This document shows, piece after piece, positions 25,662 to 28,742 of a DNA stretch of 64,000 bases. The stretch spans positions 310,001 to 374,000 of the forward strand of contig NZ_JAPPUY010000002.1 of the NCBI RefSeq assembly GCF_026712245.1, in the 5' to 3' direction. The position numbers were made by a program, and so were the translations under genes. Under the pieces are notes generated by a model that was not told the DNA's origin, made no database searches, and worked only from the letters and a program-made list of their open reading frames with translations. Positions within the stretch are counted from its first letter, which is position 1, and each line of letters opens with the position of its first letter. The stretch comes from Roseateles hydrophilus. Its GTDB lineage: Bacteria > Pseudomonadota > Gammaproteobacteria > Burkholderiales > Burkholderiaceae_C.

Positions 25662-27014
25662 TCAGGGCTTGGTGATCAACGCGTAGAAGAAGCCGTCCAG
25701 GGCCGGGGGCTGCGAGCCAGCATTCTCAGCGACGGGGAGCAGGTGGCCGGTGAAGCCGGTCACGTCGTGGGACTTGGCGTCGGGCTGGCGTTGCAAAAAC
25801 GCGTCGAGCTGCGCCTGGCCCTCGGCGCGGAACACCGAGCAGGTGGCGTAGACCAGTCGCCCGCCCGGCGCCAGCAGCGGCCACAGTGCATCGAGCAGCT
25901 CGGCCTGGATCTGCGCCAGCGCGCCGATGTCGCCGGGCCGGCGCAGCCAGCGCACATCGGGGTGGCGGCGCACGATGCCCGAGGCGCTGCAGGGCGCGTC
26001 CAGCAGGATGGCGTCGAAGGGCTGGCCGTCCCACCAGCTGGCGGTCTGGCGGGCGTCGGCGGCCTTCAGCGTTGCGTGCTGTTGCAAGCGTTTCAGGTTG
26101 TCCTGCACGCGGGCCAGGCGCTGGGCGTCGGCGTCCAGCGCGGTGAGCTGCAGGTCGGGCTGCAGCTCCAGCAGGTGGGCCGTCTTGCCGCCGGGGGCGG
26201 CGCAGGCGTCCAGTACGCGGGCGCCGGGCCTCAGCGGCCGCTCCGTGCCCATGCCGACAACCAGCGGCGCGGCCAGCTGTGCGGCGGCGTCCTGCACGGA
26301 CACCAGGCCGTCGGCAAAGCCGGGCAGCGCCGCCACCGGCACCGGCTTCTCCAGCACCACCGCCTGCGGCGTGGGCGCGCCCAGCGTGCGGGCCGCGATG
26401 CCCAGCGTGGCCAGGCGCTCGACGTAGTCGGCCGCCGTGCCCCGCTGGGCATGCACGCGCAGCGTCATCGGCGGCGGGCGGTTGTTGGCCGCCAGGATGG
26501 CCTGCCACTGGGCGGGCCAGTCGGCCTTGAGCTTCTCCACCCACCAGTCCGGGTGGTTGAAGGCGCCCAGCGGGCTGCGCTGGGCGGCGGCCAGAAGCGC
26601 GTCGCGCTCGCGCAGGAAGCGGCGCAGCACGGCGTTGACGAAGTTGGCGCTGGCCGGCGCGCGCTGCTTGGCGGCGTGGACGGCCTGATCCACCAGCGTG
26701 TGGTCGGCATACATGGGCGCGGCCTGGGCGTCGGGGTCGGGCCACAGCAGGGCCAGCGCCGTCACCAGCAGTGCGTCCACGCGCGGCGGCGGCGCCTTCG
26801 GGGCGAGCTGCTGGCGCACGGCCTGCGCGCTGCCCAGGCGGCGCAGCACGGCGAAGGCCAGGGCCTGCGTGCCGGGGCGCAGGTCGCCCGGCACCTTGGC
26901 CAGCAGGTCGGTCAGCGAGCGGCCGTCGCGCACGCCCTGCACGGCGTCAGCCGCCTGGGACAGCAGCCGGTGCAGCGGGGCGGAAGGGGGGCCGGAGGAA
27001 GGGCTTTGGGACAT
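25662..27014 (-). CDS. rsmB: 16S rRNA m5C967 methyltransferase RsmB
   Basis: A 450-aa enzyme. The N-terminal NusB-like helical domain (about 1-150, including ASANFVNAVLRRFLRER) is fused to a SAM-dependent methyltransferase domain. That domain has VLDACAAPGGKTAHLLEL (SAM binding), DAILLDAPCSASGIVRRHPD (catalytic cysteine of the PCS motif) and the second cysteine in LVYATCSVFRAEG. The ATG at 27014 gives the expected size. The gene is divergent from folE, 42 bases away, and heads the leftward rsmB-DUF4390-ntrY-ntrX block. Confidence 0.95.
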   Translation of the reverse strand: MSQSPSSGPPSAPLHRLLSQAADAVQGVRDGRSLTDLLAKVPGDLRPGTQALAFAVLRRLGSAQAVRQQLAPKAPPPRVDALLVTALALLWPDPDAQAAPMYADHTLVDQAVHAAKQRAPASANFVNAVLRRFLRERDALLAAAQRSPLGAFNHPDWWVEKLKADWPAQWQAILAANNRPPPMTLRVHAQRGTAADYVERLATLGIAARTLGAPTPQAVVLEKPVPVAALPGFADGLVSVQDAAAQLAAPLVVGMGTERPLRPGARVLDACAAPGGKTAHLLELQPDLQLTALDADAQRLARVQDNLKRLQQHATLKAADARQTASWWDGQPFDAILLDAPCSASGIVRRHPDVRWLRRPGDIGALAQIQAELLDALWPLLAPGGRLVYATCSVFRAEGQAQLDAFLQRQPDAKSHDVTGFTGHLLPVAENAGSQPPALDGFFYALITKP

Positions 27015-27056
27015 GGGGGCAGTGTAGAAGTGGGCTTTGGCCCCAGAATCGTTGCC

Positions 27057-27749
27057 ATGAATGCCCCCGCCCCCGACGCGCCCGTCTCCGAGCGCATCCG
27101 CTACCGCCTCGTGTCGGCCGGCTGCCGCCACCATGCCAACGACAACATCGCTGCTTTCATCGAGCCCGGCGAGCTGGACGCGCTGCAGGCCGAGGTGCAG
27201 GCCAAGATGCAGGCCGTGCTGCAAAGCCTGGTGATCGACACCGACAGCGACCACAACACGCAGGAGACGGCCAAGCGCGTCGCCAAGATGTTTGTGCGCG
27301 AGGTGTTCGCCGGGCGCTACGCGCAGGCGCCTTCGGTCACCGAGTTCCCCAACTTCAGCCGTCTCAATGAGCTGATGATCGTGGGCCCCATCACCGTGCG
27401 CAGCGCCTGCTCGCACCACCTGTGCCCCATCATGGGCAAGGTCTGGATCGGCCTGCTGCCCAACGAGCACTCCAACCTGATCGGCCTGTCCAAGTACGCG
27501 CGGCTGTGCGACTGGATCATGAGCCGGCCGCAGATCCAGGAAGAGGCCGTCACCATGCTCGCCAACGAGCTGCAGGAGCGGGTGCAGCCCGACGGCCTGG
27601 CGCTGGTGATGGAGGCTGACCACTTCTGCATGCACTGGCGCGGCGTCAAGGACAGCGAGTCCAAGATGACCAACAGCGTGATGCGGGGCGCGTTCATGAA
27701 GGACGCCAACCTGCGCCGCGAGTTCCTGTCACTGATTGCCAAGGGCTGA
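27057..27749 (+). CDS. folE: GTP cyclohydrolase I
   Basis: Converts GTP to 7,8-dihydroneopterin triphosphate, the first step of folate and of queuosine/preQ0 biosynthesis. The zinc ligands and active-site residues lie in RSACSHHLCPIMGKVWIG and DHFCMHWRGVKD, and QPDGLALVMEA precedes the second. At 230 aa the protein has the typical length of the type IA enzyme, with a short variable N-terminus. The ATG at 27057 is used. A BLUF photoreceptor gene follows 3 bases after its stop, and queC, a later queuosine enzyme, lies about 1 kb further on the other strand. Confidence 0.96.
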   Translation: MNAPAPDAPVSERIRYRLVSAGCRHHANDNIAAFIEPGELDALQAEVQAKMQAVLQSLVIDTDSDHNTQETAKRVAKMFVREVFAGRYAQAPSVTEFPNFSRLNELMIVGPITVRSACSHHLCPIMGKVWIGLLPNEHSNLIGLSKYARLCDWIMSRPQIQEEAVTMLANELQERVQPDGLALVMEADHFCMHWRGVKDSESKMTNSVMRGAFMKDANLRREFLSLIAKG

Positions 27750-27752
27750 ACC

Positions 27753-28175
27753 ATGCTCGTCCGCCTGATGTACGCCAGCCGCGCCACCGCGGCCTTCTCC
27801 GAGGCCGACCTGGCCCAGATCCTCAAGACCTCGCGCGAGCACAACCCGGCCGAGGGCATCACCGGCCTGCTGTGCTACAGCGACGGCATGTTCGTGCAGG
27901 TGCTGGAGGGCGGCCGCGAGGCGGTCAACGCGCGCTACAAGCACATCGTGCTCGACAAGCGGCATCGCGATGTCGTGCTGCTGGGGTACGAGGAGATCGT
28001 CGAGCGCGGCTTTCCTGGCTGGAACATGGGCCAGGTCAACCTGCACCGCCTCAACCCGGCGCTGGTGCTGAAGTACTCCGAGACCGGCAGGCTCGACCCC
28101 TACGCGATGAGCGGTGGTGCGATGGCCGCGCTGTTCCGCGAGATGTGCGCCTCGGGCGCGATCGCGGTCAGCTGA
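27753..28175 (+). CDS. BLUF-domain blue-light sensor
   Basis: A 140-aa flavin (FAD) photoreceptor of the short BLUF type. The key residues line up with AppA at one constant offset: Y7 (AppA Y21), N31 (N45), Q49 (Q63), W90 (W104) and M92 (M106), so a working light-driven Tyr-Gln-flavin switch is likely. After the BLUF core (about 1-95) comes a 45-residue helical tail and no output domain, so it must signal by contact with another protein. The ATG follows the folE stop by 3 bases, so the two are co-transcribed; whether it acts on FolE is only an inference. Confidence 0.93.
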   Translation: MLVRLMYASRATAAFSEADLAQILKTSREHNPAEGITGLLCYSDGMFVQVLEGGREAVNARYKHIVLDKRHRDVVLLGYEEIVERGFPGWNMGQVNLHRLNPALVLKYSETGRLDPYAMSGGAMAALFREMCASGAIAVS

Positions 28176-28196
28176 GGCCGCACCGCGGCGCGCCGC

Positions 28197-28742
28197 TCAC
28201 AGCGAGCGCGCTTCCTTGAAGCCGTAGAGATTGGCCAGCACCCGCGTCGGGAACTGGTTCATCGCCTCGTTGTACTGCGCCACCGCCTGGTTGAAGACCT
28301 GGCGCGTGAAGGCGCGCTGTCGTTCGATCAGCTTGAGCTCGCTGACCAGCGCGTCGATCTCGGTCTCGCTGCGCAACTCGGGCTGGTGGTCCAGCAGCGA
28401 CAGCAGCCGGGTGAGCGCCGCCGCATGCAGCGCGCCGGCCACGGCCAGGCTGCCGGCGGGGTCGGGCGCCCAGGGCTTGCCGCGCGCGGCCTGGGCGGCG
28501 GCCTGCGACTCGGCCTGCGCGCTGGCCAGCGCGTCAAACGTGGCCTGCTCGCTGGGCAGGCGTGGGCCCACGGTGGCCAGCAGCCGGTCGCAGACCTCGC
28601 CGCGCTCCTTGAGGTGCGCATCCAACTGCGTGAAAGCGTCGCCGATGGCGTTGCGCAGCGCCATCAGCCGGTTGTAGGCACCCACGCCCCAGAAGAAGAG
28701 CAGCGCCGCGCCGGCAACGCCCACCCACTGCCAGGCGGTCAT
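28197..28742 (-). CDS. LemA-family membrane protein
   Basis: The 181-aa protein begins with one membrane helix ([22 protein letters not shown]) followed by a long helical cytoplasmic or periplasmic part, with the LemA marks [20 protein letters not shown] at the start and [19 protein letters not shown] near the end. LemA proteins have no established biochemical function. The start codon overlaps the queC stop (ATGA), so the gene depends on queC transcription. It is convergent with the BLUF gene. Confidence 0.88.

Follow-up and report, generated by a model that had tools for sequence, protein, structure and literature searches.

Described BLUF and GTP cyclohydrolase I systems

BLUF photoreceptors are flavin-binding proteins that show a red shift of ~10 nm under blue light. 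Many of them carry no output domain, and to our knowledge the partner of many of these short proteins is still to be identified; for the Acinetobacter protein BlsA, Fur is a partner. The best comparison for the protein discussed here is cyanobacterial PixD (Slr1694/Tll0078), which in crystals is a decamer of two stacked pentameric rings and whose complex with PixE is described as dissociating on illumination (PMC5899715). The two cases are alike in the five photocycle residues and in the predicted full-length fold; they differ in that PixE is a response-regulator-like phototaxis protein, whereas the constant neighbour of the BLUF gene studied here codes for an enzyme, FolE. Signalling through a protein partner is also described for E. 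coli BluF with BluR, for BlsA and the AnBLUFs of Acinetobacter and for AppA with PpsR (PMC5899715, PMC9758184), but in these systems the partners are regulators and not a metabolic enzyme. The available text of PMC9020721 does not mention folE among the AnBLUF contexts, and neither a BLUF gene beside folE that had been tied to FolE nor a BLUF protein with a metabolic enzyme as partner was found in the open-access papers searched.

On the enzyme side, the animal GTP cyclohydrolase I, GCH1, is a D5 decamer capped along its five-fold axes by two pentamers of the regulator GFRP; in the human protein R235 bonds GFRP and is needed for the GFRP-phenylalanine stimulation, and E128 forms a bond at the barrel top (PMC7750480). 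The present locus recalls this system in its proposed docking face, the barrel rim near the residue aligned with human R235, and in a possible pentamer-on-decamer geometry. GFRP, however, is no BLUF protein and reports phenylalanine and BH4 rather than light, and the likeness is a functional analogy only; indeed, Pfam assigns BLUF alone to the protein, and no GFRP is found among the 22 sequence and 50 fold matches listed for it.

A third system joins folE and light more directly. In Pseudomonas, folM-folE-folX is controlled through a short-LOV protein and a class II LitR; the gene of this short blue-light receptor shares a region with folE, and folE is induced 1.6-3.3 fold by light (PMC9758184). 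This case links folE to light biology; it differs from the present locus, which holds a BLUF gene, in that the receptor is a LOV protein acting on transcription through a MerR-type regulator. The earlier note on this DNA, drawn from the sequence letters, had presented light control of pterin or queuosine precursor supply as a new link; the novelty is reduced in so far as light control of folE through LOV and LitR has been published for Pseudomonas (PMC9758184).

The folE-BLUF locus

The window is the whole analysed stretch of DNA, 64,000 nucleotides from Roseateles hydrophilus. The two genes and the gap between them are:

27057-27749, + strand: folE, GTP cyclohydrolase I, 230 aa (PF01227, 150 bits)
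27750-27752, + strand: intergenic gap ACC, 3 nt, from the folE stop TGA to the BLUF ATG
27753-28175, + strand: short PixD-like BLUF gene, 140 aa, with helices at the C-terminus and without output domain (PF04940, 109.5 bits)

The start of the BLUF gene 3 bases past the folE stop, as first noticed, is exact; the protein had also been called short and free of an output domain, and no further Pfam domain was found in it at E 0.001. PF04940 covers residues 2-93 with profile positions 1-92 of 92, that is, over its full length. The five photocycle residues of AppA type that had been named, Y7, N31, Q49, W90 and M92, are all found; the PDB alignment relates the window protein to the AppA chain 2iyg with an offset of +14, and we take their AppA counterparts to be Y21, N45, Q63, W104 and M106. 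Among 166 BLUF proteins encoded behind folE, Y, N, Q and W are present in 166/166 and M in 165/166. The nearest solved relatives by sequence are cyanobacterial PixD proteins, and a fold search with the monomeric AF2 model (pLDDT 89) retrieved PixD for all of the best 20 matches (TM 0.83-0.90 over 134-139 alignment columns, 35-40% identity), with a predicted match over nearly the whole chain, C-terminal helices included. FolE matches the PF01227 profile, being the only match in the whole genome, and can be aligned with solved enzymes whose chains we assign to E. coli, human and rat. Taken singly, both proteins are ordinary, the window BLUF as a PixD-type receptor and FolE as a GTP cyclohydrolase I.

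Upstream lies the divergent rsmB and downstream the convergent lemA and queC. Consensus scans of 26950-28250 returned 0 terminator-like and 0 sigma-70-like promoter sites. FolE and BLUF share one reading frame in the window, and in 32/150 genomes of the family a query across both genes gives a single in-frame match. A read-through fusion was considered and rejected, since the gaps of the pair loci fall in all frames and a profile search finds 126 genomes with BLUF behind folE.

FolE of this type carries ahead of the Pfam domain a motif R-x-HANDNI (residues 24-31, window 27126-27149). Near-invariant both in the presence and in the absence of BLUF, it was rejected as a docking site. The window genome has a second BLUF, 42% identical, on another contig (L202, G000 contig 7), with no folE in the surrounding 6 kb; it lies within an open frame of 455 aa.

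Conservation of the pair

Adjacency of folE and BLUF is no accident of a single genome. Within the genus, a BLUF of any kind (E 0.001) occurs in 12/20 genomes, each of which carries one behind folE. The family was surveyed in 150 genomes of 141 genera with a profile, A1, built from 19 folE-linked BLUFs: a match of at least 201 bits occurs in 126/150 genomes, and in 126/126 folE lies directly upstream on the same strand (for G092 the adjacency is taken from the in-frame match). Weaker family BLUFs, of at most 150 bits, behave differently, 22 of 23 being without a folE listed on the same contig and strand, among the matches listed. Although built from linked members, the A1 profile is blind to adjacency, so the split between strong and weak matches is informative. 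The exception among the weaker proteins is G104, a diverged copy behind folE with Leu in place of M92; with it, the pair occurs in 127/150 family genomes. The 22 weaker rows include two half-length matches at contig ends of G135 (G135:C18:94024-94233 and G135:C17:1-210), where the upstream side is invisible; no folE of G135 is among the matches listed, and its BLUF gene may have been broken up in assembly.

In the named collection, folE is upstream in 80/80 loci (the best 80 of 534 confirmed relatives), within 43 nt in 77 and at 61-69 nt in 3; the genera include Diaphorobacter, Acidovorax, Variovorax, Polaromonas, Rhodoferax and Ramlibacter. Across the order, an orthologous BLUF (at least 172 bits) was found in 49/300 genomes of 13 families, 7 of these genomes being from the family of the window, and folE is upstream in 48/49; in the last, G188, the locus is cut and both genes stand at contig ends. 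Seven weaker BLUFs of the order have no folE nearby. The order contains two FolE classes, one about 64-84% and the other 30-41% identical to the window FolE, and the orthologous BLUF, where checked, is behind the close (64-84%) class. In a class sample of 274 genomes, the orthologue occurs outside the order in 2 genomes of one genus, both with folE, while 5 weaker BLUFs outside the order are all without it. The pair is also present on two Cupriavidus megaplasmids, of C. metallidurans CH34 and of Cupriavidus sp. EM10, where both genes were located by tblastn because the records have no gene annotation in that stretch. The earlier note had named absence of the pair from relatives as the outcome that would count against it; the survey of Burkholderiales finds the pair kept in 13 families.

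Gaps between the two genes, measured in 166 pair loci of which some may belong to one species, range from 0 to 244 nt with a median of 4, and 127/166 are of 10 nt or less. Outer neighbours vary by lineage while folE-BLUF persists: rsmB, lemA and queC accompany 21, 17 and 15 of 167 pair loci (the flanks counted differ in length), all of them loci from the genus of the window and from near genera. The 80 named loci (best 80 of 534) yielded none of these three genes, and 27 wider neighbourhoods from other families gave one weak lemA match. The Diaphorobacter locus is flanked by an endonuclease-family gene, a PLD-family gene and an EamA transporter gene, and other lineages differ again. A queuosine link through queC, which the earlier note had also entertained, is unsupported by these counts (15/167 pair loci, 0/80 named loci, 0/27 wider neighbourhoods) and was rejected, queC being limited to the window's genus and near genera.

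FolE and BLUF trees are broadly concordant (mirror-tree r=0.75, 163 pairs). G046 holds two separate pairs, and for each of them 6 of the 8 nearest neighbours are common to both trees. In the relative G006 (L201) folE is followed by lemA, with BLUF cleanly absent; folE persists there, so its BLUF partner is dispensable to folE.

FolE residues whose conservation follows BLUF

FolE proteins with BLUF (162) and without it (47) were compared over 230 columns; the BLUF-less set was drawn from genomes of the genus, family and order and from second copies, and for the column counts G188 was placed with BLUF and G104 excluded. The best separating column is His138, present in 160/162 FolEs with BLUF vs 19/47 without; N136 is found in 162/162 vs 31/47, K215 in 144/162 vs 14/47 and Q177 in 136/162 vs 9/47. 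Because relatedness inflates such raw counts, changes were also counted on a tree of the FolE proteins from which columns 136-140 had been left out; columns 12-228 were tested, and G104 was counted with BLUF. BLUF-less branches hold 34% of all changes on this tree; nevertheless they carry 22 changes of H138 against 3 on branches with BLUF (Bonferroni 7e-6), 20 against 5 of K215 (6e-4), 10 against 0 of N136 (0.004) and 23 against 10 of Q177 (0.006). I108 is weaker, with 7 changes on BLUF-less branches and 0 on the others. Against 400 random clade sets of like size, H138 has a family-wise p of 0.0025, its score being reached by 0/400 sets; the value is 0.005 for K215, N136 and Q177, and 0.035 for I108 and D179.

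One of the three H138 changes on BLUF-bearing branches belongs to G104, whose BLUF looks decayed. Both Cupriavidus FolEs, which are outside the tree test though relatives of theirs may be inside it, retain N136, H138 and K215. In a sign test with 19 independent pairs, H138 scores 9:1 (uncorrected p=0.011) and is outranked by columns 173, 177, 218 and 225. Of the 19 BLUF-less clades, 7 keep H138 in all their members; one of the 7 comprises 8 genomes of the window's genus, and in 7/8 of these K215 is replaced by Thr. When only secondary losses within the family are considered, H138 is still first, but on 6 changes against 3 (uncorrected p=2e-4). The BLUF-less set contains several second copies, in which constraint may be relaxed for other reasons. 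As judged from these alignments, residues on one face of FolE are under tighter constraint where BLUF is present. The sites concerned are:

27378-27380, + strand: FolE I108, start of strand b1; weaker BLUF dependence
27462-27473, + strand: FolE 136-139, N-E-H-S, loop after strand b2; N136 and H138 BLUF-dependent
27585-27593, + strand: FolE 177-179, Q-P-D, turn before strand b3; Q177 BLUF-dependent, D179 more weakly
27696-27701, + strand: FolE 214-215, M-K, after strand b4; K215 BLUF-dependent, 214 aligned with human R235

In the AF2 model of FolE (pLDDT 94) strands b1-b2 and b3-b4 form hairpins, which brings I108, N136, H138, Q177, D179 and K215 to one rim of the barrel; the placement is a topology argument from the model, and the rim was named after the top columns were known. 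According to the model, the BLUF-dependent columns at the strand ends share a single rim, the face on which GFRP docks in animals. Compared with the human and E. coli enzymes, H138-S139 form an insertion of two residues; position 214 corresponds to human R235 and E105 to human E128, the human numbers following from an offset applied to the 1fb1 chain. Leu occupies position 214 in 207/209 FolEs and Met in 2/209, Met being the residue in the window, so the GFRP contact residue itself is not kept.

Proposed mechanism and alternatives

The conserved two-gene unit may be read as a short PixD-like BLUF serving as the light-dependent partner of FolE. Its docking site would be the five-fold-axis rim of the FolE beta-barrel, equivalent to the GFRP face, and the docked protein would shift FolE between more and less active states. 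We give a probability of about 0.6 to this main reading, that BLUF is a light-dependent partner docking on the FolE barrel rim, for which the residue comparison is the chief argument. A more detailed version, in which a BLUF pentamer or decamer sits on the five-fold face of the FolE decamer as GFRP does in animals and yields a directly light-gated enzyme, with a photoreceptor at work on the committed step of folate/pterin synthesis in 13 sampled families of Burkholderiales, is tentative and in our judgement stands a little short of even odds, the decamer geometry being borrowed from homologues. Blue light would alter the FolE-BLUF complex as it does PixD-PixE; by this analogy the dark form would hold and restrain FolE, and its release in light would increase the supply of pterins and folate, though the sign is a guess. 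The proposal of the earlier note that the short BLUF acts on FolE gains from the conservation of the pair and from the constraint on the FolE face, and is retained as a predicted partnership.

The main rival to docking on FolE is a light-stress regulon of the LitR/CarH type, in which BLUF is co-transcribed with folE and acts on a transcription factor or some other partner; we consider it unlikely. In Pseudomonas, LitR homologues regulate phrB, ufaM and folE, and in E. coli the MerR-type BluR is controlled by BluF (PMC9758184). In 5/27 wider neighbourhoods (families f6 and f47) the pair has a MerR-type regulator no more than about 10 kb away; in 3 of the 5 the regulator has B12-binding domains and CMAS-type matches are also near. 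In L166:2428-4380 (L211) a CMAS gene lies 9 nt upstream of folE, recalling ufaM/folE of Pseudomonas. However, 22/27 neighbourhoods are without matches to the photolyase, CMAS, LitR and MerR queries; a LitR gene (MerR plus B12-binding domain) is represented in the window genome by partial domain matches only and elsewhere in 3/27 neighbourhoods; and a regulon would leave the BLUF-dependent rim residues of FolE unexplained. LitR control was rejected as a general rule, MerR-type genes being confined to 5/27 neighbourhoods and two families. The MerR regulators upstream of the pair in f47 (L191:3246-4256, L189:3250-4272, L215:159-1136) have no detected B12-binding domain and may be of a LitR-like class. 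Light could also matter through DNA repair, with FolE supplying the folate (MTHF) antenna of photolyase and BLUF tuning that supply. Photolyase and folE are both light-induced in Pseudomonas (PMC9758184), and PF03441 occurs in 132/150 family genomes; nevertheless, the pair is present in 13/18 genomes without PF03441 vs 114/132 with it (Fisher p=0.16), which leaves a dependence of the pair on photolyase unsupported, and the photolyase of the window genome has no match near the pair in the 27 wider neighbourhoods. We regard this reading as very improbable.

Two further explanations dispense with contact between the proteins. Mere co-expression, by translational coupling or a shared promoter, with an adjacency frozen by descent and no direct functional link, would agree with the short gaps (10 nt or less in 127/166) and with the mostly concordant trees; it is improbable given that the pair persists while its outer neighbours change, that one genome holds two pairs with largely matching FolE and BLUF neighbours, and that the constraint on FolE tracks the presence of BLUF. 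That last observation could also arise from a small-molecule allosteric site, if loss of the residues and loss of BLUF both followed a change in pathway use; the corresponding human face binds BH4 (PMC7750480), and some BLUF-less FolEs are second copies. Yet the strongest column is a loop insertion and not an aligned BH4-contact residue, and of the residues aligned with human R241, D127 and E128, R220 (R241) is found in 162/162 FolEs with BLUF and 47/47 without, N104 (D127) in 161/162 and 43/47, E105 (E128) in 162/162 and 43/47. Such a site is given a slim chance.

One orthologous BLUF group, spread over 13 sampled families, thus has FolE as its only candidate partner, together with a patch where contact is predicted and individual residues named within it. 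If docking is true, blue light directly tunes the first step towards folate and pterins in bacteria reputed non-photosynthetic, and bacterial GTP cyclohydrolase I is regulated by a protein at the face that GFRP occupies in animals; the pair could also yield a light-switchable enzyme.

Variant and atypical loci

A few loci depart from the common arrangement. In G161:C34:9927-10346 the orthologous BLUF match behind folE contains one in-frame TGA. Conversely, on G454 contig 117 (L163 / L215) it is a second folE copy that matches from residue 73 only and has an in-frame TGA, while the BLUF beside it looks intact. The G104 locus (L194, L258), where the diverged BLUF with Leu for M92 accompanies a FolE with Ser138, is possibly a decaying pair. 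Finally, a Comamonadaceae plasmid (L324:1543-3870) carries a different BLUF, located between rpoN and a Cd/Pb-responsive regulator.
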